51,858 bases of DNA from Actinomycetospora sp. (GTDB taxonomy: Bacteria > Actinomycetota > Actinomycetes > Mycobacteriales > Pseudonocardiaceae). Every line of letters starts with the position of its first letter. Position 1 is the first letter of the stretch. The position numbers and the translations under genes are program-made. This document shows positions 1,531 through 29,297 of this stretch, piece by piece. The stretch lies in contig JAQSWW010000002.1 of assembly GCA_029266415.1 (NCBI GenBank), positions 1 to 51,858 on the forward strand, read 5' to 3'. A model generated the notes under the pieces. It did not search any database. It worked only from the letters and a program-made list of their open reading frames with translations, and was not told the DNA's origin.

Positions 1531-4500
1531 CTAGTCGGACAGCGCCTCGGCGATGAGCGCCTTCTGCTCCACCTCGTGCACCTTGGCGACGCCGGCCGCC
1601 GGGGCGGCCATGCGGCGCCGGGAGACGCGCGTGAGCGAGGGCAGCCGGCCGTCCATCCGCTCCGGCAGCCACAGGCCCAGGAAAGGCCAGGCGCCCTGGT
1701 TGGCCGGCTCCTCCTGCACCCACCGGACGTCCTGGCGGGCGTTCGGGTACCGGTCGAGGACGGCGGCCAGCTCCTCGGTGGCCACCGGGTAGAGCTGCTC
1801 CATCCGCACGATCGCGGTGTCGTGCGTGCGGCCCGCCTTCTCGCGCGCGGCGACCAGCTCGTAGTAGATCTTGCCGGCGCAGAGCAGGAGTCGCGTGACG
1901 CCGTCCGTGCCGCCGTCGGCGAACGCGGGGTCGTCGAGGATCGGCCGGTAGCCGCCCGAGGTGAAGTCCTCGACCCGGCTGACCGCGGCCTTGTTCCGCA
2001 GCATCGACTTCGGGGTGAACACGATGAGCGGGCGGCGCACGCCGTCGGTGGCGTGGCGGCGCAGCAGGTGGAAGTAGTTCGCTGGGCTCGACGGCACCGC
2101 GACGGTCATGGACCCCTCGGCGCACAGGGTCAGGAACCGCTCGATACGCCCCGAGGTGTGGTCGGGACCCTGGCCCTCGTGGCCGTGCGGCAGCAGCAGC
2201 ACGACGTCCGAGGTCTGGCCCCACTTCGCCTCACCGGACGAGATGAACTCGTCGATGATCGACTGGGCGCCGTTGACGAAGTCGCCGAACTGCGCCTCCC
2301 ACAGCACCAGCGCGTCGGTGTTGGCCACCGAGTAGCCGTACTCGAACCCGACCGCGGCGAACTCGGAGAGCGCCGAGTCGTAGGGCATGAACTTGCCCTG
2401 GTCGGCGGTCAGGTTGCGCAGGGGGTAGTACTCGGCGCCGGTGTGGCGGTCGATGACCACCGAGTGGCGCTGGACGAACGTCCCGCGCCGCGAGTCCTGG
2501 CCGGACAGGCGCACCAGCTTGCCGTCGATGAGCAGCGACCCCCAGGCCAGCAGCTCGGCGTAGGCCCAGTCGATGCCCTCGTCGCTGTCGACCGCCGCGG
2601 CCTTGCTGCGGCGCTCGAGCACCGGCTTGACGCGCGGGTGCACCGCGAAGCCCTCGGGCAGGTCGACGTGCGCGCGGGCGATGCGCTGGATGACCTCGAG
2701 CGGCACCGCGGTCTGCAGGGAGTTCGGCACCGCCTGCTCGTACTCGACCGACGGGCTGGGCGCCGGGTCGGCCTTCTCGAGCTCGCGGACCTCGTTGAAC
2801 ACGTGCTCGAGCTGGCTGCCGTAGTCGCGCAGCGCGTGCTCGGCCTCCTCGAGCGAGATGTCGCCGCGGCCGATCAGCGACTCGGTGTAGGTCTTGCGCA
2901 CCGAGCGCTTGGCGTCGATGACGTCGTACATCTCCGGCTGGGTCATCGAGGGGTCGTCGCCCTCGTTGTGGCCCCGGCGCCGGTAGCAGATCATGTCGAT
3001 CACGACGTCGGAGTGCCAGCGCTCGCGGAACTCGACCGCGAGGCGCGCCACCCAGACGCAGGCCTCCGGGTCGTCACCGTTCACGTGGAAGACCGGCGCG
3101 TCGATCATCTTCGCGACGTCGGTGCAGTAGTGGGTCGAGCGGGTGTGCTCGGGCGCGGTGGTGAAGCCGACCTGGTTGTTGACGACGACGTGCACGGTGC
3201 CGCCGGTGCGGTAGCCGCGCAGCAGCGCGAGGTTCAGCGTCTCGGCCACCACGCCCTGGCCCGCGAACGCGGCGTCGCCGTGCATGGCCACCGGCAGCAC
3301 CGTGAAGCCGTCCGGGCCCTTGTCGAGGATGTCCTGCTTGGCCCGCGCGATGCCCTGCATCACCGGGTCGACGGCCTCGAGGTGCGACGGGTTGCTGGTC
3401 AGCGACACGGTGGTCTCGCCGTCGCCGAACATCCGGAAGAACTTGCCCTCGGCGCCGAGGTGGTACTTCACGTCGCCGGAGCCGTGCGCCTGGCCCGGGT
3501 CGAGGTTGCCCGAGCCGCCCGCGGTGCGGCATGCCGATGACGACCTCGTCCAGCTCGTGCGCCGCCGCCGTGTCGAGGACGGCGTCGAGCAGCGGGATGA
3601 CCGTCTCGGCGCCCTCAAGCGAAAAGCGCTTCTGTCCGACGTACTTGGTCTGCAGGAACGCCTCGAACGCCTCGGCCGCGTTGAGCTTTGACAGGATGTA
3701 CTTCTGCTCGGCGACCGGCACCTTCTCGTGCGGCTTCTCGATGCGCTCCTGCAGCCACGCGCGCTTGGCGGGGTCGAGGATGTGCATGTACTCGACGCCG
3801 ATGGTGCGGCAGTACGAGTCGCGCAGCCGTCCGAGGACGTCGCGCAGCTTCATGCAGCCGCTGCCCGCGAACCCGTCGACGGGGAACTCGCGGTCGAGGT
3901 CCCACAGCGTGAGCCCGTGCGAGGCGATGTCCAGGTCGGGGTGCTTGCGCTGCGGGTGGCTCAACGGGTCCGTGTCGGCCATGAGGTGGCCGCGCGTGCG
4001 GTACGCGTCGATCAGCTCGATGATCCGGGCGGTGCGGTCGATCTGCGACGACGGCAGGTCCTGGCGCCAGCGGATCGGCTCGTAGGGGATCCGCAGCGAC
4101 GCGAAGATGTCGTCGTAGAACTCCTCCTCGCCGAGCACGAGGTGGTGGATCCGGCGCAGGAAGTCGCCCGACTCGGCGCCCTGGATGATCCGGTGGTCGT
4201 ACGTGGACGTCAGCGTGATGATCTTGCTGATGCCCATCTCGGCGAGCTTCTCCTCGCTCGCCCCCTGGAACTCCGCGGGGTACTCCATCGCACCGACACC
4301 GACGATGCAGCCCTGGCCGACGGTCAGGCGCGGCACCGAGTGGTTGGTGCCGATCGTGCCCGGGTTGGTCAGCGAGATCGTGACGCCGGCGAAGTCCTCG
4401 GCGGTCAGCTTGTTGGTGCGCGCCTTGCGCACCATGTCCTCGTACGCGGCCCAGAACTGCGAGAAGTTCATGTTCTCGCAGCCCTTGAGGGCGACCACCA

Positions 4501-5374
4501 CGAGCGAGCGCGACCCGTCCTTGGCCTTCAGGTCCATCGCCAGGCCGAGGTTGACGTGCCCCGGGTCGACGACGGCGGGCTTGCCCTTCTCGTCCTCCCC
4601 GAAGTGGCGGTTCATGTTCGGGAAGTCCGCGAGGGCGCGGACCATCGCGTAGCCCAGCAGGTGGGTGAACGACACCTTCCCGCCGCGCGAGCGCTGCAGG
4701 TGGTTGTTGATCACGATGCGGTTGTCCGCGAGCAGCTTCGCCGGCACCGCACGCACGCTCGTCGCCGTCGGCAGCTGCAGCGACGCGGTCATGTTCTTCG
4801 CGATGGCGTTCGCGGCACCACGCAGCGGACGGGTGGTCTCGGCGGTGCCGTCGCCGGCGCCGGGCTGCGCGGACTTCGCGGGGCTCGTCGTGCCCGCCGC
4901 CGGCTTGCTCGTGGGGGGCTCCTCGCCCGTGCGCGACGACGTCGTGCGCCCCGAGCCCGCGGCCGCCGACGACGGGGCAGCGCTGTCGGTGTCGCCGCCG
5001 GAGGTGGCGCTGCCGTTGCCGCTCGACCCGCTGCCGGCACCGCCCGACCCGTCGGTGCGCGCCTGCCCGTTGCCGGACGAGGGGGCCGGGGTGTCCGCCG
5101 CGGGCGCGGTGGCGCCGGAGGTGGTGTCGGCGGGCGCCGGAGGTGCCGAGCCGCCGCTGCCCGAGGCGTCCGGGGCGGACGCGGGCGACGACGCGGACGA
5201 GCCCGCGGAGACAGTCGTCGCCCCCGCGTCGGCGCTTTCGGCGGGGGCGTAGTCGGCGAAGAACTCGTGCCAGGCCGCGTCGACCGAGTCGGGGTCGGCG
5301 AGGTAGCGCTGGTACATCTCGTCGACCAGCCACTCGTTGGGTCCGAACTGCGCGGTCGAACTACTACTCGACAC
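1531..5374 (-). pseudogene. kgd: Multifunctional 2-oxoglutarate decarboxylase/dehydrogenase E2-E1 (Kgd), broken by an internal deletion and frameshift
   Basis: TCA-cycle enzyme that decarboxylates 2-oxoglutarate (thiamine diphosphate E1) and carries an N-terminal acyltransferase domain, as in mycobacterial Kgd (about 1,230 residues). The 5' frame begins with the [16 protein letters not shown] helix, then a long Ala/Ser/Gly/Thr/Pro linker, then the E2 core with [14 protein letters not shown] and [14 protein letters not shown]. It enters E1 and reads [11 protein letters not shown] before leaving frame near 3511. The other frame resumes at [20 protein letters not shown] and runs intact to the stop, including [17 protein letters not shown]. 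Compared with the family (GRLNVLANIVGKPY...EFEGNLxP), about 19 conserved residues are missing; RL is followed by one stray G, so a 3n+2 deletion (about 56 nt) fits. E1 would not be made if this is real. Loss of such a central enzyme makes an assembly collapse a serious alternative. Confidence 0.85.
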
Positions 5375-5428
5375 GACTCAGGATCGCCTCAATCAGTCGT
5401 CGCGGTGACGGTGGGAGCAGCGTCCAGA

Positions 5429-17822: not shown

Positions 17823-19184
17823 TCAGCGGATCGCGCACCCCGGGTTCAGGGTCCCGTCCGGGTCGAGCGCCGACCGCACGCGGCGCAGGACGTCGAGGGC
17901 GACCGGGTCGCCGAGCTCCGCGAGGTGGTGGGCCTTCGCGCGCCCGACGCCGTGCTCGCCGGACACCGCCCCGCCCAGCGCGATGCCGGCCGCGAAGACG
18001 TCGTGCAGCGTCTGCGCCAGCCGGCCGGGGTCGGGTTGGAACACCGCGAGGTGCACGTTGCCGTCGCCCGCGTGCCCGCAGCCCAGCACCCGCGCGCCCT
18101 GGGCGTCGCCGGCCGCCCGCGCGCGGGCGAGGAACGTCGCCATCGCCGAGCGGGGCACCACGAGGTCGACGATCTCGTCGGCGCCCGCGGCCTTGACCGC
18201 CCAGAACGCCTTCTCCCGCGCCTCGATCAGCCGGCGCGCGGCGCCCGCGGGCAGGTCGAACACCTCCGCCGCCCCGAGCGTGCCCAGGACGTCGGCGAGC
18301 TCCTCGGCGTCCTCGTCCACCCGCTCCTGGCGGCGCCCGGCGAGCTCGACGAGCAGGTGGTCGGCGTCGACGAGGTCCTCGGGCAGGCCCAGCGACAGCC
18401 CGGCGTTCTCGCAGATCGCGCGCATGGTCGGGCCGTCGAGGTACTCGCACACGGTCGGCGCGAGCCCGGCGCCGACGATCCGCCCGACGGCGGCGGTGAC
18501 GTCCTCGGCGGAGGAGAAGGGTGCCAGCACCGTCCGTCGGGCCGGCAGGGCCGGGTGCAGCCGCACGATCACCTCGGTGACCAGCGCGAGGGTGCCCTCC
18601 GAGCCGACGATCAGCTGGGTCAGGTCGTAGCCCGTCGACAGCTTCGCCAGCCGCCCACCCGTGCGCACGACGGAGCCGTCCGCGAGCACCGCCTCGAGCC
18701 CCAGGACGTGCGCGCGCGTGACGCCGTAGCGCACGGCGCGCATGCCCCCGGCGTTGGTGGCGACGGTGCCGCCCAGCGACGCCGACTGCTCGCCGGGGTG
18801 CACGGGGTAGGTCAGCCCGTGCTCGCCGGCCGCGGCGTCGAGCACCTCGAGGGCCACGCCCGGCTGCACGACCGCGACGGCGTCGACGGGGTCGACCTCG
18901 AGGACCCGGTCCATGCGCGCGAACACCACGAGCACCGCGCCGTCGTCGGGCGTCGCGGCGCCGGACAGCCCGGTGCCCGCACCGCGCGCGGTCACCGACG
19001 CGCCGGCCGCCCGCGCCGCGCGGACCACGGCGACCACCTCGTCCCGGTCGCCCGGCCACACGACGTACGCCGGCTTGCCCGGGGGCACACCCAACGCCTC
19101 GTCGGCGCACAGGTCCGCGACCGACGGGTCGTCGCCCGCCACGACGTGCTCCGCACCGACGGCCTCGACGAGCTGGGAGAACAT
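17823..19184 (-). CDS. FAD-binding oxidase, D-lactate dehydrogenase / glycolate oxidase GlcD type
   Basis: 453-residue flavoprotein of the VAO/PCMH family. The FAD-binding half shows VWPGDRDEVVAVVRAA, SVTARGAGTGLSGAATP and SLGGTVATNAGGMRAVRYGV. The C-terminal half carries GCGHAGDGNVHLAVF and SGEHGVGRAKAHHL, the active-site histidine region of D-lactate dehydrogenase (cytochrome) and GlcD. It should oxidise a D-2-hydroxy acid and pass electrons to the respiratory chain or another acceptor; lactate and glycolate cannot be separated. No iron-sulfur partner (GlcF) is nearby. ATG 19184 lies 11 bp from a TAGCA-N5-TGCTA inverted repeat, a possible operator overlapping its start region. Confidence 0.85.
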   Translation of the reverse strand: MFSQLVEAVGAEHVVAGDDPSVADLCADEALGVPPGKPAYVVWPGDRDEVVAVVRAARAAGASVTARGAGTGLSGAATPDDGAVLVVFARMDRVLEVDPVDAVAVVQPGVALEVLDAAAGEHGLTYPVHPGEQSASLGGTVATNAGGMRAVRYGVTRAHVLGLEAVLADGSVVRTGGRLAKLSTGYDLTQLIVGSEGTLALVTEVIVRLHPALPARRTVLAPFSSAEDVTAAVGRIVGAGLAPTVCEYLDGPTMRAICENAGLSLGLPEDLVDADHLLVELAGRRQERVDEDAEELADVLGTLGAAEVFDLPAGAARRLIEAREKAFWAVKAAGADEIVDLVVPRSAMATFLARARAAGDAQGARVLGCGHAGDGNVHLAVFQPDPGRLAQTLHDVFAAGIALGGAVSGEHGVGRAKAHHLAELGDPVALDVLRRVRSALDPDGTLNPGCAIR

Positions 19185-19194
19185 CCCCGTGGTC

Positions 19195-19209
19195 TAGCAC
19201 GGACTGCTA
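19195..19209. promoter_or_regulatory. Inverted repeat TAGCA-N5-TGCTA between divergent genes
   Basis: TAGCA (19195-19199) and TGCTA (19205-19209) flank CGGAC in the 72-bp gap between the FAD oxidase (minus) and the reductase gene (plus). A second weak dyad, TTGC-N5-GCAA, follows at about 19223-19235. Position and symmetry suit a repressor controlling both directions; no regulator gene is adjacent. Confidence 0.4.
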
Positions 19210-19256
19210 TGGTCCGGAGCGGTTGCAGAACGCAATCACCGAGGGAGGGCGCACCG

Positions 19257-19817
19257 ATGGGCCGGCTGACGTACGCGATGATGACCACGCTCGACGGCTA
19301 CACGGCGGACGCCGACGGCGACTTCGGGTGGGGTGCGCCCGAGGACGTCGAGCTGCACCGCTACTGCGAGGAGCTCGTCCGGCCGGTGCGGACGTACCTC
19401 TACGGCCGGCGCATGTACGAGACGATGGTGTTCTGGGAGACCGCGGATGCGCTGCCGGACGCCCCGCCCTTCGTCAAGGAGTTCGCGCGCACCTGGCAGG
19501 CGGCGGACAAGATCGTCTACTCGCGCACGCTCGAGACGGTCAGCAGCGAGCGCACCCGCATCGTGCGCGAGTTCGACCCCGACGCGGTGCGCGAGCTCAA
19601 GGCCGGCGACGGCGACCTCACCGTCGACGGCCCCGGTCTCGCCGCCGCGGCGCTGGCGGCCGGGCTGGTCGACGAGATCGGGCCGATCGTCATCCCCGTC
19701 GTCGTCGGCGGCGGCACGCCCTTCCTGCCCGCCGGGGTGCGCCTCGACCTCGAGCTCGTCGGCGAGCGCCGGTTCGCCAGCGGGGCGGTGCACCTGCAGT
19801 ACCGGGTCCGCTCGTGA
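19257..19817 (+). CDS. Dihydrofolate reductase / RibD C-terminal domain protein
   Basis: 186 residues with the RibD_C/DHFR-like Rossmann fold used by many actinomycete NADPH reductases. It begins GRLTYAMMTTLDGYTADADG, followed by LYGRRMYETMVFWE, a KIVYSRTLETV strand and the nucleotide-binding end DLTVDGPGLAAAALAAGLVD with VVVGGGTPFLP. The Shine-Dalgarno GAGGGAGG stands before ATG 19257. The family is broad (reductases of flavin or pterin-like substrates, some standing in for DHFR), so the substrate is unknown. Divergent from the FAD oxidase; the siderophore-interacting protein follows 26 bp after its stop. Confidence 0.8.
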   Translation: MGRLTYAMMTTLDGYTADADGDFGWGAPEDVELHRYCEELVRPVRTYLYGRRMYETMVFWETADALPDAPPFVKEFARTWQAADKIVYSRTLETVSSERTRIVREFDPDAVRELKAGDGDLTVDGPGLAAAALAAGLVDEIGPIVIPVVVGGGTPFLPAGVRLDLELVGERRFASGAVHLQYRVRS

Positions 19818-19843
19818 GCCGCGACGCTCGTTAGCGTGGGTCC

Positions 19844-20647
19844 ATGGTGGTCCGCGACGCCCCGGTCGTCTCGCACGTCGAGCACCCCGAGCAGGCGCGC
19901 CACCCGCGCCGGGTCGAGGTCGTCGACGTCACCGACCCGACGCCGCGGATGCGTCGCGTGCGCCTGGCGGGCGACCTCGCCGACCTCACCGTTGCCGGGC
20001 CCACCGACCACGCCAAGCTCTTCTTCCCGCCCGCGCCGGGACAGGAGCCGCCGGCGCCGGAGTTCTCGGCGCGCGGCCTCGTCGCCCCGCCGGCGGGGCT
20101 CCCGCGGCCCTACCGCGAGTACACGCTGCGCCGCCACGACCCGGGCGCCCGCACCGTGGACGTCGACCTCGTGCGCCACGGCAGCGGGCTCGCCGGGGCC
20201 TGGATCGAGGACCCGCGGGGTGCGCTGTGGCTGCTCGGGCCGCGGTCGAGCGCCGTCGTCGAGCCGCGCGACTGGTACCTGCTCGGCGGCGACGAGACCG
20301 CCCTGCCCGCGCTCGCGCGGTGGATCGAGCAGCTGCCGGCCACGGCGCGTGTGCACGTCGTCGCGGAGGTCGCCGACGCCGCCGAGGAGGCCTACCTGGC
20401 TGACGTCCCGACGCACGTCACCGTCGACTGGCGCCACCGCGACGGCGCCGCGCCGGGCACGACGACCCTGCTCGACGACGCCGTCGCCGCGTTCACGCCC
20501 CCGACGGGCGAGGGGTTCGCGTGGATGGGCGCCGAGGCCGGCGCCCTGCGCCCGGTGCGCCGGCGCCTGCGCGCGCTCCTGCCCACCGCCGCGGTCGACC
20601 TCGACGGCTATTGGCGCCGCGGCGTCGAGGGCACGGGGCTGGGCTGA
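19844..20647 (+). CDS. Siderophore-interacting protein (FAD-binding ferric-siderophore reductase type)
   Basis: 267-residue cytoplasmic flavoprotein of the ViuB/SIP family, which reduces ferric siderophores to release iron. The FAD-binding barrel shows MRRVRLAGDLADL and PRPYREYTLRRHD (the RxYTxR motif contacts FAD). The C-terminal half has WYLLGGDETALPALARWI, EGFAWMGAEAGALRPVRR and the final DLDGYWRRGVEG, all diagnostic. No siderophore synthesis or uptake genes are visible in the window, so it probably acts on siderophores imported by systems elsewhere. Followed by a hairpin repeat and a convergent membrane-protein gene. Confidence 0.85.
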   Translation: MVVRDAPVVSHVEHPEQARHPRRVEVVDVTDPTPRMRRVRLAGDLADLTVAGPTDHAKLFFPPAPGQEPPAPEFSARGLVAPPAGLPRPYREYTLRRHDPGARTVDVDLVRHGSGLAGAWIEDPRGALWLLGPRSSAVVEPRDWYLLGGDETALPALARWIEQLPATARVHVVAEVADAAEEAYLADVPTHVTVDWRHRDGAAPGTTTLLDDAVAAFTPPTGEGFAWMGAEAGALRPVRRRLRALLPTAAVDLDGYWRRGVEGTGLG

Positions 20648-20653
20648 CCGGCC

Positions 20654-20694
20654 TGTGAGCACTTTCCGCCCCGGTGAGGGCCGAGGGTGCTCAC
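20654..20694. terminator. Dispersed hairpin repeat, family 2, copy 1 (convergent terminator)
   Basis: GTGAGCAC (20655-20662) pairs perfectly with GTGCTCAC (20687-20694) around a 24-base loop. The sequence from TGTGAGCACTTTCCGCCCCG matches the copy at 27398 with one mismatch in 20 bases. It begins 7 bp after the siderophore-interacting protein stop; its right arm contains the stop codon of the convergent gene at 20691. Confidence 0.7.
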
Positions 20695-21080
20695 GTGGGG
20701 GAGGCGCGGCGGATCCAGAGCAGGCCCAGGATCGGCAGGATCACGGGGACGAAGCCGTAGCCGATGCCGAAGTCCGACCAGACGGTCGGGTCGGGGAAGT
20801 CCTCGGGGCGCAGGAGCGAGAGCGTCCCGATGCCCAGCACCCCGACGAGCTCGACCATCACGGCCACGAGCGCCACCCGCCGCGCGCCTCGGCCCAGGGC
20901 GACCGCGGCCACGAGGTACACCGCCGCCGCGAAGGCCGAGAGCAGGTAGGCCTCCGGCGCGCGCTCGAACTGCACCGCGATCTGGTAGAGCGCCCGCGCC
21001 CCCGCCGAGATCGCGAAGACGACGTAGACGACGAGCAGCACGCGCCCCGGACCGGCGGACAGCGTCCGCGTCTCAGGCAC
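20691..21080 (-). CDS. Integral membrane protein, unknown function
   Basis: 129 residues with four predicted membrane helices, including LLVVYVVFAISAGARALYQI, AFAAAVYLVAAVALG and FVPVILPILGLLWIRR. The N-terminal 12 residues are polar. ATG 21080 overlaps the stop of the preceding membrane-protein gene by 8 bp, so the two are coupled and may form one complex. I do not recognise the family beyond a general actinomycete membrane protein. The stop codon lies inside a terminator hairpin arm. Confidence 0.65.
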   Translation of the reverse strand: MPETRTLSAGPGRVLLVVYVVFAISAGARALYQIAVQFERAPEAYLLSAFAAAVYLVAAVALGRGARRVALVAVMVELVGVLGIGTLSLLRPEDFPDPTVWSDFGIGYGFVPVILPILGLLWIRRASPT

Positions 21081-21444
21081 GCGTCACCGTCCACACCTGC
21101 CCGGTGCGCAGCGACAGCACCGCCAGCGTGATCCCGGCGACGGCCAGCACCACCGAGCCGTAGCGGGTGCGCTCGCCGTGGGCCAGGGCCGCGCCGATCG
21201 GCAGCACCACGAGCGTCGCGATGAGGTAGCCGACGATCTCGACCACCGCGCCGGTCGAGCGCCCCGGCTCCACGAACAGCCCGACGCCCAGCACCAGCGC
21301 CTGCACCAGCGCCACGGTCTCGAGCACCAGCAGGCCGATGCGGTGGCGGATCGTCGGCGCCTGGCCGAACACCGCGGACACCGCGCACCACAGCGCCCAC
21401 GCCAGCGCGAGCGCGAGCACCGCGAAGGTGAGGCCGACGATCAC
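21073..21444 (-). CDS. Integral membrane protein, unknown function
   Basis: 123 residues, four predicted helices (GLTFAVLALALAWALWCAV, LLVLETVALVQALVLGVGLF, GYLIATLVVLPIGAALA, VLAVAGITLAVLSL). It begins 51 bp downstream of the carrier-protein gene on the same strand, so it may be the fifth gene of that operon, although the gap contrasts with the 4-bp overlaps upstream. Function unknown; a transport or accessory role for the pathway product is possible but unsupported. Confidence 0.65.
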   Translation of the reverse strand: MIVGLTFAVLALALAWALWCAVSAVFGQAPTIRHRIGLLVLETVALVQALVLGVGLFVEPGRSTGAVVEIVGYLIATLVVLPIGAALAHGERTRYGSVVLAVAGITLAVLSLRTGQVWTVTRA

Positions 21445-21495
21445 GCGCGGCAGCCTACGAGGGTCCTCCGGTGTCGGCCGTGCTCGAGGCCCCGC

Positions 21496-21759
21496 TCACC
21501 CCGTGACCCCGGCCTCGGCGAGGAACGCCGCCATCGCGTCCACGCTGCGGAAGCGGTCGATGTCGAAGTCGTCGAGCGGCAGCCGGCAGCCGAAGGTGTC
21601 CTCGATCCCGACGATCAGCGTCACGAGCGCCAGCGAGTCGAGCAGGCCGACCGCGACGAGGTCGGTGTCGGACGAGGGCACGTCGACCCCGAGCTGGTCG
21701 CGGACCAGGTCGGTCAGCTGCGTGATCACGTCCTCTCCGGTCGCGTCGGTCACGGTCAC
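21496..21759 (-). CDS. Acyl/peptidyl carrier protein
   Basis: 87-residue stand-alone carrier protein. The phosphopantetheine attachment site is Ser42 in AVGLLDSLALVTLIVGIED, which has the DSL motif. The four-helix pattern and closing RFRSVDAMAAFLAEAG are typical. GTG 21759 is preferred because it overlaps the stop of the adenylation-domain gene (GTGA); GTG 21753 is an alternative. It should carry the acyl or aminoacyl group activated by the upstream adenylation enzyme. No phosphopantetheinyl transferase or ketosynthase is in the window. Confidence 0.85.
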   Translation of the reverse strand: MTVTDATGEDVITQLTDLVRDQLGVDVPSSDTDLVAVGLLDSLALVTLIVGIEDTFGCRLPLDDFDIDRFRSVDAMAAFLAEAGVTG

Positions 21760-23330
21760 GGTCCTCCCGTCGTGGCGCCGGCGGGCGCGAACCGCTCCCG
21801 CAGTGCCGGTCGATCGATCTTGCCGTTGACGTTGTGGGGCAGGTCCTCGAGCTCCGCCCAGCGCGCGGGCAGCATGTAGCGCGGGACGAGGTCGGTGAGC
21901 ACGCGGCGCACCTCGGTCGGGGGCAGGACGTGGCCCTCGGCCACCGAGTAGGCGCCGCAGATCGTCGTGCCCTCGAACCCGCCGGCCTCCACGCCCACCA
22001 CGGCGCACTCGCGGATCCCCGGCACCGTGGCCAGCGCCGCCTCGATCTCGCCGAGCTCGATGCGGTAGCCGCGGCTCTTGACCTGCGAGTCCGCGCGCCC
22101 GAGGAAGTGCACGACGCCGGCGTCGTCGACGCGGGCGAGGTCGCCGGTGCGGTAGATCCGTGCCCCGTCCGGCCCGGTGACGAACGCGGCGTCGGTCTTC
22201 TCCTGGTCGCGCCAGTAGCCCGGCGACAGGCCGGCCCCGCCGATGTACAGCTCGCCGATCTCGCCGGTCGGCACCTCGCGGCCCTCGTCGAGCACCAGCA
22301 GGCGCTCGCCGTCGCACGCCACCCCGATCGGCACCGGCACGGTCTCGTCGGCGGGCACCTCGGGGACGTCGTGGAACGACGACGCGATGGTCGCCTCGGT
22401 CGGCCCGTACAGGTTGGTGAACCGCACGTGCGGCAGCTTGCGCATCCAGTGCGCGAGCACCGGCGTCGGCAGCACCTCCCCGCACCACAGCAGCCGCTCG
22501 AGCGCGGGGAAGTCGTCCTGGGCGACGGCGTCGAACCGTGCGAGGTAGGTCAGCACGCTGGGCACCGAGAACCACTGGGTCAGCGCGCGGTCGCGCAGGA
22601 ACGCCGCCGTGCCGCGCGGGTCGATGCCCAGCGACGCGGGCACCAGGTGCAGCTCCGCGCCGGCCGACAGTGTGGCGTAGATGTCGAACGTCGACAGGTC
22701 GAAGTGCAGCGGCGGGTGTCCGGAGACACGGTCGCCGGCGCGGGTGCCGAAGTGCCGCACCGCCCAGTCGACGAACGCGAGCACCGTGTCGTGGGTGATC
22801 ATCACGCCCTTGGGCACGCCGGTGGAGCCCGACGTGAACAGCAGGTGCGCGAGCTCGGCGGGCGCGACCTCCGGCGCCCCGTCCGGCGCCGCGCCCAGGT
22901 CCGCGCGCGTGAACGCCCCGGGCGCGTCGTCCAGCGACCCCACGACCGGAGGTGGGCCGGGCAGCTCGGCGAGCACGGCGTCGAGCAGCGGCCGCGACGG
23001 CGCGTCGACGAGGACGACGGCGGGCTCTGCCGCGCCGACGATCCGCGCCACGCGCGACGCGGGCCCGGCCGGGTCGACGGGGACGTACGCCCCGCCGGCG
23101 CGCAGCGTCCCGATCAGCGCGGCGATCGTCCACGGCGCCTTCTCGGCCAGCACGCACACGCGGTCGCCGTGGCCCACCCCGTGCGCGAGCAGCACGTGGG
23201 CGACGCGGTTGACCGCGGCGTCGAGCTCGGCGTAGGTCAGCACCTCGTCGGTGCCGACGATCGCGGGGCGGTCGGCGTGGCGCTGCGCCGACTCCGCCAG
23301 CAGGTCCTGCAGGTGCCGCACGCCCGTCAT
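21756..23330 (-). CDS. Stand-alone amino acid adenylation (NRPS-type A domain) enzyme
   Basis: 524-residue free-standing adenylation domain of the NRPS/DltA group. Motifs: LTYAELDAAVNRVAHVL (A1), P-loop LLFTSGSTGVPKGV at about 164-176 (A3), HFDLSTFDIYATLSAG at about 209-224 (A4), NLYGPTEATIASSF (A5), GELYIGGAGLSPGYW (A6), YRTGDLARVDDAG (A7), FLGRADSQVKSRGYRIELGE (A8), and the catalytic-lysine motif NVNGKIDRPAL (A10). The Asp in FDLSTFD is the residue that usually binds the substrate alpha-amine, so an amino acid substrate is likely. No carrier or condensation domain is fused; the carrier is the next gene. Overlaps both neighbours by 4 bp. Confidence 0.88.
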   Translation of the reverse strand: MTGVRHLQDLLAESAQRHADRPAIVGTDEVLTYAELDAAVNRVAHVLLAHGVGHGDRVCVLAEKAPWTIAALIGTLRAGGAYVPVDPAGPASRVARIVGAAEPAVVLVDAPSRPLLDAVLAELPGPPPVVGSLDDAPGAFTRADLGAAPDGAPEVAPAELAHLLFTSGSTGVPKGVMITHDTVLAFVDWAVRHFGTRAGDRVSGHPPLHFDLSTFDIYATLSAGAELHLVPASLGIDPRGTAAFLRDRALTQWFSVPSVLTYLARFDAVAQDDFPALERLLWCGEVLPTPVLAHWMRKLPHVRFTNLYGPTEATIASSFHDVPEVPADETVPVPIGVACDGERLLVLDEGREVPTGEIGELYIGGAGLSPGYWRDQEKTDAAFVTGPDGARIYRTGDLARVDDAGVVHFLGRADSQVKSRGYRIELGEIEAALATVPGIRECAVVGVEAGGFEGTTICGAYSVAEGHVLPPTEVRRVLTDLVPRYMLPARWAELEDLPHNVNGKIDRPALRERFAPAGATTGGP

Positions 23331-24340
23331 GCCCGCACCGCCGCACTCGCGCGGGTGAACACCTCGCCGGCGTGCGCGAGGTCCTCGGGGTCGGGCGGGA
23401 TGTCCAGCACGAACACGTCCGTGCCGCGCTCGAGGTGCCGGGCCACCTCGGCGGCGACGCGGTCGTGCGAGCCGACGAGGTAGGGGCAGAACGTCTTGTA
23501 GTTCTCGAACGGCCCCAACCAGTAGGGGTCGGGCTCGACGCCGAGGTCGACGGGGGCGGACGGTGCCTTCGCCCGGGTGGCCAGCTGGTGGTGCCAGTGC
23601 GAGTCCGACACACGCATGGCCATCGCGTGCGCGACCTGCCCGCCGCGGTCGGGCGGGAAGCGCTCGTGGGCCACCCGCCACGCCTCGTCGGCGTCGTCGC
23701 GGGCGATGAGCCCGACGCGCACGCCGCCGCCGGTGGGCACCTCGCCGGTCTCGGCGCCCAGCGGCTCCGGGTAGCGGATCGGGGTCGCGCCGATCTCCTC
23801 GGCCGCGGCGCGTCCGGCCGGCGACGACCCCGAGATGAGCAGCTCGGGCATCAGCTCGGGCGGCAGGGCCGGGGCCAGCTTCAGGTTCTCGACGTGGTGC
23901 CAGCGCCCGTGGTGGGTGACGGTCTCCCCGCGCAGCAGCGCGGTGAGGATCCGCGTGTACTCGACGGTGCGGGCGTAGCGGTCGTCGTGCGCGGTGTCGT
24001 CGCCGAGCGCGAGCAGGTCGTTGCGGAACCCGCCGGCGAGCATGTTGAGGTGCACCGCGCGCCCGTGCAGGTAGGCGAGCGAGGACACCATCGACGCCGC
24101 GGTGTAGGGGTGCATGTACACCGGCTGGACGGCGACGAGCGGGGCGAGCCGCTCGGTCGCGGCGATCGCGGCCTGGGCGACGAGCCACGGGTCGGCGATG
24201 CCGTTGTCGGTGTAGACGAGCATCCCCGCGCAGCCCGCCTCCTCGCTCCACCGGGCGGTGGCCGCGACGGCGGCGAGGTAGTCGCCCGCCGGCACGTCCT
24301 TGGACTGTGGGCAGGTCGAGTAGACCGTCGGCGAGCTCAT
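23327..24340 (-). CDS. LLM-class flavin-dependent monooxygenase
   Basis: 337-residue TIM-barrel oxygenase of the luciferase-like/alkanesulfonate monooxygenase superfamily, using reduced FMN and O2. Visible: EEAGCAGMLVYTDNGIADPW, the GRAVHLNMLAGGFRNDLLAL block, DDRYARTVEYTRILTALLRG and PELLISGSSPAGRAAAEEIG near the flavin phosphate site. LLM enzymes are known as tailoring oxygenases on carrier-bound intermediates, and here the gene sits between an acyltransferase and an adenylation gene with 4-bp overlaps on both sides. Oxidation of a carrier-tethered amino acid (C- or N-hydroxylation) is therefore the leading guess. No dedicated flavin reductase is adjacent. Confidence 0.85.
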   Translation of the reverse strand: MSSPTVYSTCPQSKDVPAGDYLAAVAATARWSEEAGCAGMLVYTDNGIADPWLVAQAAIAATERLAPLVAVQPVYMHPYTAASMVSSLAYLHGRAVHLNMLAGGFRNDLLALGDDTAHDDRYARTVEYTRILTALLRGETVTHHGRWHHVENLKLAPALPPELMPELLISGSSPAGRAAAEEIGATPIRYPEPLGAETGEVPTGGGVRVGLIARDDADEAWRVAHERFPPDRGGQVAHAMAMRVSDSHWHHQLATRAKAPSAPVDLGVEPDPYWLGPFENYKTFCPYLVGSHDRVAAEVARHLERGTDVFVLDIPPDPEDLAHAGEVFTRASAAVRA

Positions 24341-25446
24341 GCGGCGCCCCTCTCGTTCCAGAGCAGGTGGGGGGCCATCCACCACTCGCCGTCGAGGCGG
24401 CTGAGCAGCGCCTCGGGGGAGTCGAGAAGACCCAGCACCCTGCTGTCCTCGGCATGGACCAACGACCAGGTCGTCTGCCGGATCGTGCACCGCCGGCGCC
24501 GCACGGCGGCCACCAGCGACGGTTCGAGCCGACCGGCCACCGCCGAGGCGCCGTGCGCGTCGGCGTGGGCGATCAGGTGGTCGAGCACCGGCCCCGCGTC
24601 GGACCCGGTGGCCGCGACCTGCTGCACCTGTGAGGTGCCGGCCGTCGACAGAAAGTACACGTACCAGCCCAGGACCCGTCCCGCGGCGTTGCGCACCAGG
24701 TGGCGCACGACCCGGCCGCGGACGGGGACGACGGTGTCCAGCTCGGCGAACAGCCACCGCAGGTAGGGCTCGTCGTAGTCGGGGTACAGCCGCCACCGCC
24801 GGCCGGCGCCCGCCATCTGCTCGAGCAGCGCCTCGACCGTGAGGGGCTCCGCGGTCAGCTCGCCGGCCCCGGGGGCGCGGAGCCGGCGCCCGACGGCGGG
24901 CACCCGCCGCACCGGGCCGTCGGCCGCCGCGAGCGCGCGGGTCGCGGGGCGCGGGAGCGGGCGTCCGAGGTCACGCATGAACATCGCGAGGGCGCCGCCC
25001 GGACGCAGCGTCCGCTGCCACTGGAACGAGGCCGCGGGACGCGCCCATCCGCGCAGCGTCGTCCAGATCTGGTGCATCGAATCGGACGCGCCGTCGGTGA
25101 GCGTGATGTCCTGCGGGCCGGCCCGGTACGCGCGCGTGAGCAGCACGCCGGTCCCGGGGTGGTCCGGATCAGCCACCATCGGCCCCGAGCACGCGATCCG
25201 CAGCGGTCGCCCGTCGAGGCGCATCCGCCGCGGGTGGGACGCCACGAAGCCGACCATCCGGCCGTCGCGGCCCTGGGCGACCAGCGACGGGAGCTCGGGA
25301 TCGACCCACGGGGCGTCGAAGCAATGGCGTTCCAGGAACGACACCAGGGGTGCGGGGGGAACCGGCGAGCCGGACCGGCTGAGGCGCTCGAAGAGCGAGG
25401 CCGCGTCGGGGACGTCGTCGCGACGCATCGGTCGGATCGTGGTCAC
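24337..25446 (-). CDS. GNAT-type acyltransferase, first gene of the carrier-protein operon
   Basis: 369 residues. The N-terminal half has a GNAT-like layout: RPMRRDDVPDAASLFERLSR, MVGFVASHPRRMRLDGR, then SGPMVADPDHPGTGVLLTRA in place of the acetyl-CoA loop. The C-terminal half (LYPDYDEPYLRWLFAELD, GWYVYFLSTAGTSQVQQVAA) looks like a second GNAT-fold repeat. Such double-GNAT proteins act as N-acyltransferases in several actinomycete clusters, so acylation of an amino group is plausible but not proven. GTG 25446 is selected because GGAGG lies about 10 bases upstream; longer starts read through low-complexity sequence. Confidence 0.75.
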   Translation of the reverse strand: MTTIRPMRRDDVPDAASLFERLSRSGSPVPPAPLVSFLERHCFDAPWVDPELPSLVAQGRDGRMVGFVASHPRRMRLDGRPLRIACSGPMVADPDHPGTGVLLTRAYRAGPQDITLTDGASDSMHQIWTTLRGWARPAASFQWQRTLRPGGALAMFMRDLGRPLPRPATRALAAADGPVRRVPAVGRRLRAPGAGELTAEPLTVEALLEQMAGAGRRWRLYPDYDEPYLRWLFAELDTVVPVRGRVVRHLVRNAAGRVLGWYVYFLSTAGTSQVQQVAATGSDAGPVLDHLIAHADAHGASAVAGRLEPSLVAAVRRRRCTIRQTTWSLVHAEDSRVLGLLDSPEALLSRLDGEWWMAPHLLWNERGAA

Positions 25447-25592
25447 GCGCCGCCGACCTCCACCACGCCCGGGCCACGGGCGGCGAGCGGCGCGAGCGCG
25501 CGCTCCGGTGCGTGCGACGGTCCGCACGGTCCCAGGGCGATCACGGCACCCCCTCGGTCGCGCCCACGGCGGCGCGAGCTGCCTCAACTATG

Positions 25593-25615
25593 ACGCGGTG
25601 CTGATCGCACCGCGT
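25593..25615. promoter_or_regulatory. 9-bp perfect palindrome between divergent operons
   Basis: ACGCGGTGC (25593-25601), TGATC, GCACCGCGT (25607-25615). The dyad sits in the 297-bp gap between the carrier-protein operon (minus, starts 25446) and the ABC-ATPase-domain gene (plus, starts 25744). The surrounding bases are more AT-rich (CTCAACTATGACG). It is a strong operator candidate for a TetR/GntR-like dimer, or a hairpin. No regulator gene is adjacent. Confidence 0.5.
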
Positions 25616-25743
25616 ACGCGGGTCATCACCGGACGATGTGGCCATTGTTCGCGACAGCGGACGATCAGGACACGTGGGACCCCCGGTCGTGGGCGTGGCG
25701 GGCTCCGACGACCCGCGGCGCCGGGCCGGGCACACTGCCGGCC

Positions 25744-27402
25744 ATGGCTCCCCGCGACGACCTCGCCGGCACCCTGCGTTCGCTGGACGGCGCGAGCTAC
25801 GGGCGCTACAAGTCGCTGTCCGGGGCGTGGTCCGTGGCGGAGCAGATCGGGCTCGAGGTGCTGCGCGTGCAGGCCGACCCGTTCGCGCCACCGAGCCGGG
25901 TGCGTCTCACGGTGTCCGACGCCGGCATCCCCGCCGACCTCTGCGCCACCGCCGACCGCCGCCGCGCGCTCGCGTCGTTCCTGCTGCGCGTCCTGCGACG
26001 GGCCCTGCGCGACTCCCCGGTCCACGTCGACGCGGGCGGGCCCGAGGTGCTCGACCGCAGCGCGGGCACGGTGCGCGCGGACGGCGTCGTGGTCGTCGAG
26101 GTGGGGGTGCCGTTCCCCGGCCCGAAGCGCCGGATCCTCGGCCGCGAGGCGGCGGGCCTGCTCGGAGAGACGCTGCCCGTCGCGGCCCGGGGCGCACTGT
26201 GCTGGGACGCGGTGGACCAGCGGGCGGCGCGCGCGTTCGTCGAGACCGTCGAGGACGCCGTGGCGCTGCGCGCGGCGCTGGCCGGGCGGGGCCTGGTGGC
26301 GTTCGTCGCCGACGGCGCGGTGCTGCCCCGGCGCAGCGGGGTGGACGACCGGCCGCTCGAGAGAGCGACGCCGTTCGCCGGGCCGCCGGAGCGCGAGGTG
26401 GTGCTCGAGGCGCCGAACGCCGGGCCGGTGCGCGGGCTGGGCGTGCCCGAGGGCGTCACGCTGATCGTCGGCGGCGGCTACCACGGCAAGTCGACGCTGC
26501 TGCGCGCGCTGGAGGCCGGCGTGTACGACCACGTGCCCGGCGACGGGCGCGAGCAGGTCGTGACGCGGCCGGACGCGGTGAAGCTGCGCGCCGAGGACGG
26601 GCGCGCGGTGATCCACGACGACGTGTCGGCGTTCGTCGCGCACCTGCCGTCGGGCGAGCCGACCGACGACTTCTCGACCACCAACGCGTCGGGCTCGACG
26701 AGCCAGGCGGCGTCGACGGTCGAGGCGGTGGAGGCCGGCGCCGACGTGCTGCTCATCGACGAGGACACCTCGGCGACCAACATGATGATCCGCGACGCCC
26801 GCATGCAGCAGCTGATCGCCAGCGAGCCGCTCGTGCCGTTCGTGGAGCGCGTGCGCCCGCTGCACGCCGAGCACGGGGTGTCGACGGTGCTGGTGATGGG
26901 CGGGTCGGGCGACTACCTCGGCGTCGCCGACACGGTGATCATGATGGACGCGTACCGGGCGTCGGACGTGACCGCGCGGGCCCACGAGATCGCGGCGTCG
27001 GGGGAGTCCCGCGCGGTGGAGCACACCGGGTTCCCGGCGGTGACGCCGCGCGTGGTCGACCCGGCGTCGCTGGACCCGACCGCGAAGGGCAAGCGGCGGG
27101 TGACCGCCCGGGGCCGCGACCGGCTGAGCTTCGGCGACGACGACATCGACCTCGGCGCCGTGGAGCAGATCACGGACCGCTCGCAGGTCGCGGGCATCGG
27201 GCGGGCGCTCGCGCTGCTCGGTGACGGTGTCCTCGACGGTACGATCACGCTGGCCGAGGGCCTGGACCTGCTCGACGCCGAGCTCGACCGCCGCGGCCTC
27301 GAGGCCCTGCTCGACGGGCGGAGCGAGGACATCGCCCGCCCCCGCCGCCACGAGGTCGCCGCCGCCCTCAACCGCCTCCGCTCCCTGCGCCTCCGCATGT
27401 GA
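25744..27402 (+). CDS. ABC-ATPase domain-containing protein (PF09818-like)
   Basis: 552-residue soluble protein of the predicted ABC-class ATPase family. Visible: the N-terminal LDGASYGRYKSLSGAW, Walker A LIVGGGYHGKSTLLRALEAG at about 240, DFSTTNASGSTSQAASTVEA, Walker B ADVLLIDEDTSATNMMIRDA and the H-loop-like VSTVLVMGGSGDYLGVADTV. There is no membrane domain or classic LSGGQ, so it is not a transporter. Function is unknown; nucleic-acid or metabolic roles have been proposed only by annotation. It is divergent from the carrier-protein operon across a palindrome. The stop codon is part of a terminator hairpin. Confidence 0.85.
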   Translation: MAPRDDLAGTLRSLDGASYGRYKSLSGAWSVAEQIGLEVLRVQADPFAPPSRVRLTVSDAGIPADLCATADRRRALASFLLRVLRRALRDSPVHVDAGGPEVLDRSAGTVRADGVVVVEVGVPFPGPKRRILGREAAGLLGETLPVAARGALCWDAVDQRAARAFVETVEDAVALRAALAGRGLVAFVADGAVLPRRSGVDDRPLERATPFAGPPEREVVLEAPNAGPVRGLGVPEGVTLIVGGGYHGKSTLLRALEAGVYDHVPGDGREQVVTRPDAVKLRAEDGRAVIHDDVSAFVAHLPSGEPTDDFSTTNASGSTSQAASTVEAVEAGADVLLIDEDTSATNMMIRDARMQQLIASEPLVPFVERVRPLHAEHGVSTVLVMGGSGDYLGVADTVIMMDAYRASDVTARAHEIAASGESRAVEHTGFPAVTPRVVDPASLDPTAKGKRRVTARGRDRLSFGDDDIDLGAVEQITDRSQVAGIGRALALLGDGVLDGTITLAEGLDLLDAELDRRGLEALLDGRSEDIARPRRHEVAAALNRLRSLRLRM

Positions 27403-27440
27403 GCACTGTCCGCCCCGATCAGGGCGGAGCTCATATGGGC
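27398..27440. terminator. Dispersed hairpin repeat, family 2, copy 2 (convergent terminator)
   Basis: TGAGC (27400-27404) pairs with GCTCA (27429-27433), and inside it TCCGCCC (27409-27415) pairs with GGGCGGA (27422-27428) around CGATCA. It begins at the ATPase gene's own TGA and lies in the 41-bp convergent gap before the L,D-transpeptidase stop. The first 20 bases match copy 1 at 20654 with one mismatch. Confidence 0.75.
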
Positions 27441-27443
27441 CGG

Positions 27444-27962
27444 TCAGGGGACGATCTGCACCCGGTCGTAGACCTCGAGGCCGTTGTAGAACGCCTGGGC
27501 GTCGGGGTCGGCCATGCGCACGCAGCCCGCGGACTGGCGCGACGGGTCACCGCCGTGGAACGCGCGGCCGTTGTCGTCGAAGAAGACCGACCACGGCATC
27601 CGCGCGTTGTTGTGCTCCTTGGAGAGGTGGACCTCCTCCTTGCGCTGCACGGCGAAGATCCCGACCGGTGTCTCCTGACCCGGCGCGCCGTGGTTCATCC
27701 GCACCGGGCCGCGCAGGATCGCGCCCTTGCCGTCGGAGAGCCACGCCTCGTTGGTCGAGAGGCGCGCGCAGGCCTTGACGTTGTCCTCGCACGGCATGGC
27801 CGCGACCGGGGCCGCCATCGCCACGGCGCCGACGCCCCCCAGCCCGCCGAGGGCGACCAGCCCGAGCCCCAGGGCCGCCGCGCGCCTGCCGAGCCGCCGC
27901 CCCGCCCGCTGCACGCCCTCGCGCGCCCCGGACCGGACGTCCATCCACGTGTGCCGACCCAC
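27444..27962 (-). CDS. L,D-transpeptidase (YkuD domain)
   Basis: 172-residue exported enzyme predicted to form 3-3 peptidoglycan cross-links or attach proteins to peptidoglycan. N-terminus: RRLGRRAAALGLGLVALGG begins a signal peptide, with an AAPVAAM cleavage region. The YkuD core shows TPVGIFAVQRKEEVHLSKE and the catalytic FHGG...SAGCVRM pattern, whose Cys is the nucleophile and whose His pairs with it. Only about 120 mature residues, with no LysM or Ig-like domain. GTG 27962 is chosen over ATG 27944 because GGAGGAGCAG stands 6 bases before it. Confidence 0.8.
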   Translation of the reverse strand: MGRHTWMDVRSGAREGVQRAGRRLGRRAAALGLGLVALGGLGGVGAVAMAAPVAAMPCEDNVKACARLSTNEAWLSDGKGAILRGPVRMNHGAPGQETPVGIFAVQRKEEVHLSKEHNNARMPWSVFFDDNGRAFHGGDPSRQSAGCVRMADPDAQAFYNGLEVYDRVQIVP

Positions 27963-28337
27963 CCTGCTCCTCCCGACGGTGGGCACCGAGTCGCGGTGCC
28001 TCCCTCTCAACGGCACGGCGGGCGTCACGGACGAGTGGTCTGTCCGGGTGGACCCCGGTCGCGCTCCGTGGCGCACCGGTCGCTCTCCGCGCGTGCCGGT
28101 CCGGGACCCTCTCCCCCGGGCGGCTCCACTCCGGAGACCCCCCGCGGGCGGCGGGAAGGACCAGGAGGACGTGGTCGAGGTGTCCCGGACGGGCGTGGCC
28201 CCCGTCGCCGCCGGCGCCGTCGATGAGCCGGAAGAAGGCAGACGATCAGCAGGATCGCTCCGATGACGAGCACACCGGGGACGGCTCTGCCGAGCGGCGC
28301 ATTGCCCCGGCAGCGTCCGGCCCGCCACGCTGGCCCG
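27963..28337. other. Intergenic region without a convincing gene
   Basis: A 375-bp divergent gap between the L,D-transpeptidase and LigD-polymerase genes. On the minus strand a short frame around 28230-28280 would encode one hydrophobic stretch (VLVIGAILLIVCLLPAHRRR) followed by a long Arg/Pro-rich tail. It has a GTG but no ribosome site, and the tail looks like antisense filler. I see no tRNA or strong terminator. Confidence 0.4.
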
Positions 28338-29297
28338 GTGGCGACCAGGTCCGACGAGGAGCGCGACGGCGTCGCGCTGACCAACCTCGACCAGGAGCTC
28401 TTCACCGGCGCCGGGGTGACCAAGCGCGAGCTCGTCGACTACCTCGACGGCATGGCGCCGCGCCTGCTGCCCGCGCTCGCCGGCCGCCCGTTGTCCGTGG
28501 TCCGCGCACTGCGCGGGCAGAAGCCGTTCATGCAGAAGAACGTGCCGCGCTACGCGCCCGACTTCGTGCGCACGGTGTCGTTCTGGGCGGAGAGCTCGCA
28601 CCGGGAGGTCGCCTACGCGCTGTGCGACGACCGGCCGACGTTGCTGTGGTTCGCCAACCAGCGCGCGATCGAGTACCACCCGACGCTGACCCGCGCGGAC
28701 ACGATGGACACCCCGGAGCACCTGGTGCTCGACCTCGACCCGCCCGAGGACGCCGGGTTCGACGCCGTCGTCGCGGCCGCGCACCTCGTGCGCCGCGCGC
28801 TGGACGAGGCCGGCCTGCGGGGCGTCGTGAAGACCACCGGTGCGAAGGGTGTCCACGTGCTGGTCCCGCTCGCCCCGGGCCCGACACACGAGGACGTCGC
28901 CGGCGCCACCCGCGCGCTCGCCGTGCGCACCGAGCGGCTCGGCCCGGACGTCACGACCACCGCGTTCATCCGCGCCGACCGGGGCGGCAAGGTGTTCGTC
29001 GACCCCACGCGCGCCGGCGGCTCGACGATCGCCGCCGTCTACAGCCCGCGCGTGCGGCCCGGCCTGCCCGTGTCGTTCCCGGTGTCGTGGGACGAGCTCG
29101 ACACCGTGGTCCCCTCCGAGATCACCGTGCGCACCGCGCCCGACCGCCCGGATCCCTGGGCGGACCCGGCCGCCCACCCGGCGCCGCAGGCGCTCCCCGA
29201 CGAGCTCGTCGCCGAGGGCCGCACGATCCCGGTCGCCCGCGTGCAGGCGATGCACGAGGGCAAGCGCCGCAAGCGCGCCGCCGAGCGGGGGGAGTAG
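28338..29297 (+). CDS. LigD-type polymerase/primase domain protein (stand-alone)
   Basis: 319 residues matching the polymerase domain of the bacterial NHEJ protein LigD (archaeo-eukaryotic primase fold), which fills gaps and adds nucleotides at double-strand breaks. Motifs: LTNLDQELFTGAGVTKRELV, the catalytic metal site HLVLDLDPPEDAGFD (DxD), VVKTTGAKGVHVLVPL, and RGGKVFVDPTRAGGSTIAAV with the third acidic residue, then VSFPVSWDELDTVVPSE. No ligase, nuclease or Ku gene is adjacent, so this is a free-standing domain as found in many actinomycetes. GTG 28338 is favoured over GTG 28263, which would add 25 Pro/Ala-rich residues. A family-1 hairpin repeat begins 12 bp after the stop. Confidence 0.85.
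   Translation: MATRSDEERDGVALTNLDQELFTGAGVTKRELVDYLDGMAPRLLPALAGRPLSVVRALRGQKPFMQKNVPRYAPDFVRTVSFWAESSHREVAYALCDDRPTLLWFANQRAIEYHPTLTRADTMDTPEHLVLDLDPPEDAGFDAVVAAAHLVRRALDEAGLRGVVKTTGAKGVHVLVPLAPGPTHEDVAGATRALAVRTERLGPDVTTTAFIRADRGGKVFVDPTRAGGSTIAAVYSPRVRPGLPVSFPVSWDELDTVVPSEITVRTAPDRPDPWADPAAHPAPQALPDELVAEGRTIPVARVQAMHEGKRRKRAAERGE

Follow-up and report, generated by a model that had tools for sequence, protein, structure and literature searches.

We analyzed a 51,858-nucleotide stretch of DNA (positions 1 to 51,858, here called the window) of contig JAQSWW010000002.1 from Actinomycetospora sp. and characterized a four-gene cassette on its minus strand. The source genome is 4.73 Mb in 306 contigs and is 84.5% complete. 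The first gene (25446-24337; GTG start and TGA stop, read from the sequence) encodes a 369-residue putative double-GNAT acyltransferase. The following genes encode a 337-residue luciferase-like flavin monooxygenase (LLM; 24340-23327, ATG start, PF00296 at 99 bits), a 524-residue stand-alone amino acid adenylation (A) domain (23330-21756, ATG start, TIGR01733) and an 87-residue stand-alone carrier protein (21759-21496, GTG start, PF00550 at 47.9 bits). A previous sequence-only reading had described four genes joined by 4-bp overlaps, and direct reading of the sequence confirmed the order GNAT, LLM, A domain, carrier with ATGA, ATGA and GTGA at the three junctions. The LLM is a separate gene from the A domain in the window and in 15 congeneric loci, and no oxidase is inserted in the A domain as in the Mox type. 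A Pfam scan of the four cassette genes and six neighbors (17823-29297) detected no condensation, ketosynthase or thioesterase domains, which upholds for these ten genes the earlier view of a carrier-protein set devoid of them.

The A domain scores 390.5 bits against TIGR01733 (cut-off 317.4), which places it among the nonribosomal peptide synthetase (NRPS) adenylation domains. The aspartate that binds the α-amine of the substrate, claimed in the sequence-only reading, is present as D211 (residue 235 in GrsA), and the carrier has its phosphopantetheine serine in a DSL motif, as also claimed. D211 and the core lysine motif NGKIDR are invariant in 12 genus members. The nine pocket positions of the window A domain, taken from an alignment, read DLFFLCLIA. 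Each of the 61 non-genus cassette A domains fits the pattern DLxF[LIMV]CL[IV]A; 39 are identical to the window pocket and 22 differ only at positions 239, 299 or 330. A frames of 400 residues or fewer were left out of this set, as were 7 of 68 rows with A domains of other kinds, and the L081 pocket among the 61 is incomplete. The pocket is kept even in A domains with only 32-35% identity to that of the window.

Known pockets were read from the same alignment. The AlmE string comes from chain 4oxi, which we take to be AlmE and which the search tool labels EntF-related. AlmE (DLHLFCLIA) is identical to the window pocket at 6 of 9 positions, DltA (DLMTMCTVA and DLMTLCTVA) at 4 to 5, and LgrA A2 (DIANLCIIY) and PltF (DLLYLALVC) at 4 each; five cassette members with the pocket DLHFLCLIA share 7 of 9 positions with AlmE. 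AlmE is described as a glycine enzyme that can misactivate D-Ala in the portion of PMC12930378 available to us. A glycine assignment based on a 457-bit LgrA match was rejected because that score is the sum of two A domains, the better of which (A2) reaches 233 bits versus 291 bits for PltF. The pocket comparison points to glycine as the most likely A-domain substrate, with alanine and proline as alternatives. DltC is the nearest NCBIfam model for the carrier, which scores below its cut-offs (35.4 of 68 and 27.3 of 52.35), and DltA is the second-best model for the A domain, also below the cut-offs (304.6 of 559.85 and 307.7 of 476).

The nearest solved LLMs by sequence are the SsuD structures 1m41, 1nqk and 7jv3, and the window LLM falls below the SsuD NCBIfam cut-offs (103.2 of 510 and 101.3 of 518.2 bits). 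We take C54, W196, R226, H228, R297 and Y331 to be the SsuD active-site residues, with their positions read off the 1m41 chain. Among 80 members of the LLM family, W196 and H228 are replaced by Tyr and Gly in every sequence, R297 by Tyr in 77 and Y331 by Pro in 78, and the C54 position holds Leu (53), Ile (25) or Gln (2). R226 is the sole residue of the six that is kept (80/80). The replacement of most SsuD active-site residues argues for a distinct LLM family for which a sulfonate substrate is not expected, and assignment as an alkanesulfonate monooxygenase was rejected on the five replaced positions. F420 is uncommon in the phyla over which the family spreads, which points to flavin mononucleotide (FMN) as the cofactor. 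Flavin monooxygenase domains hydroxylate the glycine α-carbon on the myxothiazol, melithiazol and solanimycin assembly lines, and the glycine-hydroxylating enzyme of skyllamycin stands alone, as described in the part of PMC10204066 available. An LLM with a proposed α-hydroxylation role is part of the palmerolide cluster, according to an excerpt of PMC8739492. The cassette LLM likely acts as an oxidase of a carrier-bound amino acid, which supports the earlier suggestion of a tethered substrate.

More distant LLMs have other partners. A scan of 397 genomes of the order (E ≤ 1e-60) found the LLM in the window genome, one congener and three others at 42-45% identity. Two of the three are near NRPS A domains (L043 and L044) and one is near another carrier (L045); none is in this cassette type. 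Plasmid LLMs from Tritonibacter, Gemmobacter, Rhizobium and Streptomyces, 44-52% identical, lie beside A domains of other pocket types, which suggests a general role on carrier-bound amino acids with no fixed amino acid. The plasmids of Tritonibacter mobilis, Gemmobacter fulvus and a Rhizobium (L127, L128 and L129) also have halogenase, P450, acyl-CoA dehydrogenase or phosphopantetheinyl transferase genes alongside the LLM and A domain.

The GNAT-like protein of the window has no Pfam or NCBIfam family match. Among 24 aligned GNAT sequences that include it, 13 match PF13527 and 7 match PF00583 (E ≤ 0.01), and one homologue (L132) exceeds the PF00583 cut-off. An AlphaFold2 model built from this alignment had a pLDDT of 89.7 and a pTM of 0.88. 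Foldseek matched the model over its whole chain to N-myristoyltransferase and Eis2 (best E = 1.7e-12, TM approximately 0.5, rmsd 5-8). Both proteins are tandem GNAT folds, and the full-length match shows the name double GNAT to be apt. As modeled, the protein encoded at 24337-25446 is a tandem GNAT with two GNAT domains per chain, and the fold match together with the GNAT Pfam matches among its relatives supports its proposed role as an acyl-transfer enzyme. Comparisons with hhalign were discarded because the negative control, a formyltransferase alignment, gave a short match at 99%. In those results the two halves matched neither each other nor the single GNAT, FemAB-type proteins and cluster c329 gave no match, and clusters c62 and c328 gave one; none of this was used. 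A single-sequence query found no close GNAT relatives outside the genus in a 150-genome family sample, and the GNAT profile matched only the window's own genome among 394 genomes of the class.

Within Actinomycetospora, 16 of 18 genomes, including that of the window, have the LLM, and the GNAT profile matches all 16 of these and neither of the other two. Presence was called at E ≤ 1e-60 for the LLM and 1e-10 for the GNAT, and one of the two LLM-negative genomes is only 83% complete. All 15 other LLM-positive genomes have the order LLM, A domain, carrier. The 4-bp overlap is kept between LLM and A domain in 15/15 congeneric loci, which exceeds a chance level, between A domain and carrier in 9/15 and between GNAT and LLM in 5/6. 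The loci fall into two arrangements. In clade 1, an optional carbamoyltransferase and usually the GNAT precede the LLM, A domain and carrier. In clade 2, the order is GNAT, GT2-GT4 glycosyltransferase, carbamoyltransferase, LLM, A domain and carrier, with the glycosyltransferase and carbamoyltransferase in the same orientation; in one clade 2 locus (L037) a contig end truncates the GNAT, and additional genes separate it from the glycosyltransferase. The NodU-type carbamoyltransferase occurs in 12 of the 18 genomes, all LLM-positive, and the GT2-GT4 gene in 10, one of which (G156) is LLM-negative. Neither gene was found in the window genome (84.5% complete) at the thresholds used. Genome G156 is 97% complete and has no LLM, GNAT or carbamoyltransferase matches; one of its four GT2-GT4 homologues has an internal stop.

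Relatives outside the genus were collected by scanning one genome per species (84,980 species) with an LLM alignment and two peptide patterns. The best 80 of 143 relatives were kept, 13 from Actinomycetospora and 67 from elsewhere. We take the 67 to belong to Acidobacteriota, Gemmatimonadota, Planctomycetota, Pseudomonadota and other Actinomycetota, with one or two each from several further groups. Gene calls and profiles outside the window were made for this analysis with our own scripts, the profiles being derived from cassette loci. In 56 of 63 non-genus loci with at least 1 kb of downstream sequence, the A domain comes directly after the LLM. The exceptions have the A domain upstream (L062, L074 and L116) or no A domain found (L100, L102 and L105), and L120 is an exception only through a late-starting profile hit, its A frame starting 9 bp after the LLM match. 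Of 50 loci with 3.5 kb or more of downstream sequence, 45 have a carrier within 7 kb. Where both the LLM and the A domain are in place (54 of 67 loci), their distances correlate (r = 0.41; 0 of 2000 permutations). The cassette is conserved and common to very different bacteria, beyond one genome, so its proposed unity as a gene set extends to genomes far from the source. In the loci examined, the earlier view of a set apart from full NRPS or polyketide synthase modules was not refuted. Most of the A domains next to an LLM are encoded by a gene of their own, although more distant LLM relatives (L043-L045 and L130) neighbor A domains of the NRPS type or different carriers, and locus L099 contains additional A domains close by.

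The same 50 loci contain accessory transferases: a double GNAT in 21, a formyltransferase in 18, a single GNAT in 13, a carbamoyltransferase in 13 and a hexapeptide acetyltransferase in 6. Three of the double GNATs (L063, L099 and L118) and one of the hexapeptide acetyltransferases (L118) are weak partial matches. The formyltransferase and single GNAT both often lie between the A domain and the carrier, and they occur together in 0 of 50 loci (18 versus 13; Fisher 0.0016). This exclusivity speaks for the pathway proposed below, with the caveat that the value is uncorrected for kinship. The carbamoyltransferase never accompanies the formyltransferase (0/18 versus 13/32). It was considered as a third alternative for the same N-acyl slot and rejected, because 5 loci have both this gene and the single GNAT. 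Two side observations concern related gene sets. Six loci (L065, L085, L086, L091, L106 and L123) represent a second cassette type whose A domains are 32-35% identical to that of the window with the same or nearly the same pocket, and which has a different carrier type and a hexapeptide acetyltransferase. In L103 (14087-18675), LLM, A domain, carrier and GNAT are followed by another A domain, a protein of the aminotransferase type and a carrier with a fused ATP-grasp-like domain.

Glycan genes were found near many of these cassettes. Among 46 loci of at least 12 kb, 22 have at least one of five glycan markers and 12 have at least two. GT4 genes are about 6-fold denser near the cassette (17 versus 2.8 expected, in 10 of 25 loci). 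The ratio is approximate, since the GT4 profile is not identical to PF00534 and some of these loci were in its training set. This comparison used 25 genomes chosen from the 67 loci for their long contigs, in which PF00534 occurs 652 times in approximately 125 Mb. An unambiguous polysaccharide cluster surrounds LLM, A domain, carrier and carbamoyltransferase in Acidobacteriaceae KBS 96 (L124), flanked by a sugar transferase, GT4s, a DegT aminotransferase, a PF00953 transferase and Wzy_C. In two congeners (G158 and G154) the GNAT is on another contig than the LLM and lies between glycosyltransferase genes. The G154 locus has Pfam matches to Wzy_C, four GT4-type genes, a polysaccharide deacetylase, an epimerase and a class-III aminotransferase, plus a chain-length protein with a weak Wzz match below its cut-off. 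The position of the GNAT in these two genomes is the strongest hint of a surface-polysaccharide endpoint. With the larger gene sets of relatives, it makes glycan tailoring a better fit than the free modified amino acid or small conjugate of the sequence-only reading; such a product is less likely on this evidence.

We tentatively favor, at something short of an even chance, a cassette that forms the core of a carrier-protein pathway modifying a small amino acid, most likely glycine, for a surface glycan. The near-invariant A pocket and the distinct LLM active site across many phyla suggest one conserved reaction. The A domain would activate one small amino acid, most likely glycine, and load the carrier, a well-supported step. 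Where a formyltransferase or single GNAT is present, the amino group may be N-formylated or N-acetylated; this slot is empty in the present species. The LLM, with reduced FMN and oxygen, would then oxidize the tethered residue. The evidence for an oxidation is good and that for its product is weak; the simplest outcome would be α-carbon hydroxylation of the (N-acyl)glycyl thioester, like the reaction of the monooxygenase domains of myxothiazol, melithiazol and solanimycin synthesis. The double GNAT may take the group off the phosphopantetheine arm, the acceptor being an amine or hydroxyl on a sugar of an exopolysaccharide or glycolipid precursor, and the NodU-type carbamoyltransferase (12/16 LLM-positive genomes; not found in that of the window) would carbamoylate the same glycan. 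A more specific proposal is possible but doubtful: a cross-phylum pathway in which an oxidized glycyl group (N-formyl-, N-acetyl- or free α-hydroxyglycine) is made on the carrier and transferred by the double GNAT to exopolysaccharides as a new class of polysaccharide substituent, the product of a stand-alone aminoacyl-carrier system of the Dlt and Alm kind that has its own oxygenase.

Several observations weigh against the glycan pathway. No glycosyltransferase was found beside the window's own cassette, and 24 of the 46 loci of at least 12 kb lack any glycan marker as judged by our own profiles. The carbamoyltransferase is absent from 4 of 16 LLM-positive genomes, including the incomplete genome of the window, and the GT2-GT4 gene was not found (E ≤ 1e-60) in that genome and 6 further clade 1 genomes. 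Conversely, G156 has four GT2-GT4 genes without an LLM. The LLM relatives on plasmids (44-52%) and the three in the order (42-45%) adjoin A domains with other pockets or other carriers. The pocket also resembles that of the proline enzyme PltF, the top hit for the pocket region among solved structures (E = 4.6e-26).

Three other explanations were weighed. A small-molecule pathway would yield a free modified amino acid or conjugate (a signal, an antimetabolite or part of a siderophore), with the GNAT acylating or off-loading it. The lack of glycan machinery found next to the window cassette and the metabolite-like clusters around the plasmid LLMs (halogenase, P450, acyl-CoA dehydrogenase or phosphopantetheinyl transferase) speak for such a product, but the GNAT in the exopolysaccharide locus of two congeners and the GT4 enrichment speak against it, and the conserved families showed no evident thioesterase or exporter, although none was searched for; we rate it as unlikely. 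PltF-like loading of proline, with the LLM hydroxylating or desaturating the prolyl-carrier, would account for the pocket-region match and for the 291 bits that PltF reaches across the complete A domain, against 233 bits for the best individual LgrA domain. Pocket identity runs the other way (4/9 to PltF versus 6/9 to AlmE), and the formyl or acetyl transferase slot would fit a primary amine better, making proline clearly unlikely. Oxidative amidation is in line with the glycine-like pocket and has chemical precedent in the available part of PMC10204066: carrier-bound glycine would receive an acyl group from a glycan or another carboxylate, the LLM would hydroxylate the α-carbon, and the carbinolamide would split into a primary amide and a glyoxylyl carrier, as in myxothiazol and melithiazol release. 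If the formyltransferase (18/50 loci) acts on the glycyl carrier, however, only formamide would be released, and a thioesterase to clear the glyoxylyl carrier was not noticed, although none was searched for. We regard this route as very unlikely.

Two genes for small membrane proteins (M1, 21073-21444; M2, 20691-21080; both minus strand and without a Pfam match) follow the carrier and had been noted alongside the set. The pair is 80-97% identical in 8 clade 1 congeners. Eight congeneric loci have the two genes near the cassette; in 3 of these, a distance of 282 bp to 2 kb and intervening genes separate them from the carrier gene. In the other 7 congeneric loci they do not adjoin the cassette. 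This variable distance and non-adjacency rule them out as cassette members; they are neighbors only. The carrier set, the LLM with a tethered substrate and the acyl-transfer GNAT are thus what stands of the sequence-only interpretation, and the membrane proteins and, with less certainty, the free product drop out of it. Elsewhere in the window, two overlapping minus-strand frames (1531-3849 and 3074-5377) resemble fragments of a single protein, presumably of the 2-oxoglutarate decarboxylase type, and the contig may carry a frame change there.

Oxidation of a carrier-bound amino acid for a surface glycan, if true, would be an extra step in the charging of envelope polymers by systems of the Dlt and Alm kind. 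It would also offer a chemical handle on the exopolysaccharides of soil Acidobacteriota, Gemmatimonadota and Planctomycetota. The cassette parts are small and free-standing, so the idea is directly testable in vitro. No description of this gene set or pocket string was found in the open-licence literature, in agreement with the earlier remark that no described pathway has this set. The butirosin side-chain pathway reportedly combines a carrier, a ligase, an LLM and acyl transfer to a sugar amine (BtrI, BtrJ, BtrO and BtrH), with ligase and transferase types that differ from those of the cassette; a search of the same literature for butirosin genes gave no hit. The flavin monooxygenases that act on carrier-bound glycine in myxothiazol, melithiazol, solanimycin and skyllamycin synthesis share glycyl hydroxylation on an assembly line (PMC10204066, in part), but the cassette LLM is a separate gene beside a free A domain, and none of the four genes has a condensation domain. 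Compared with SsuD, nearly all of the 80 LLM members have exchanged five of the six active-site residues. The A domain and DltA of teichoic acid D-alanylation have the segments CGEVLP and YGPTEAT in common, but the cassette proteins score well under the DltA and DltC cut-offs, 4 to 5 of the 9 pocket positions are different and the cassette has an oxidase; no DltB or DltD was detected among the ten window proteins scanned with Pfam (17823-29297). By the sequence comparisons made, the cassette is not a member of the Dlt or SsuD families. The AlmE-AlmF-AlmG system of lipid A glycinylation in Vibrio cholerae also pairs a stand-alone A domain and carrier for a small amino acid, has a 6/9 identical pocket and targets an envelope lipid, whereas the cassette adds the LLM and double GNAT and often a formyltransferase or second GNAT and a carbamoyltransferase. 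As judged from these comparisons, the cassette is best described as a variant of the stand-alone aminoacyl-carrier systems of the Dlt and Alm kind with an added flavin oxygenase.

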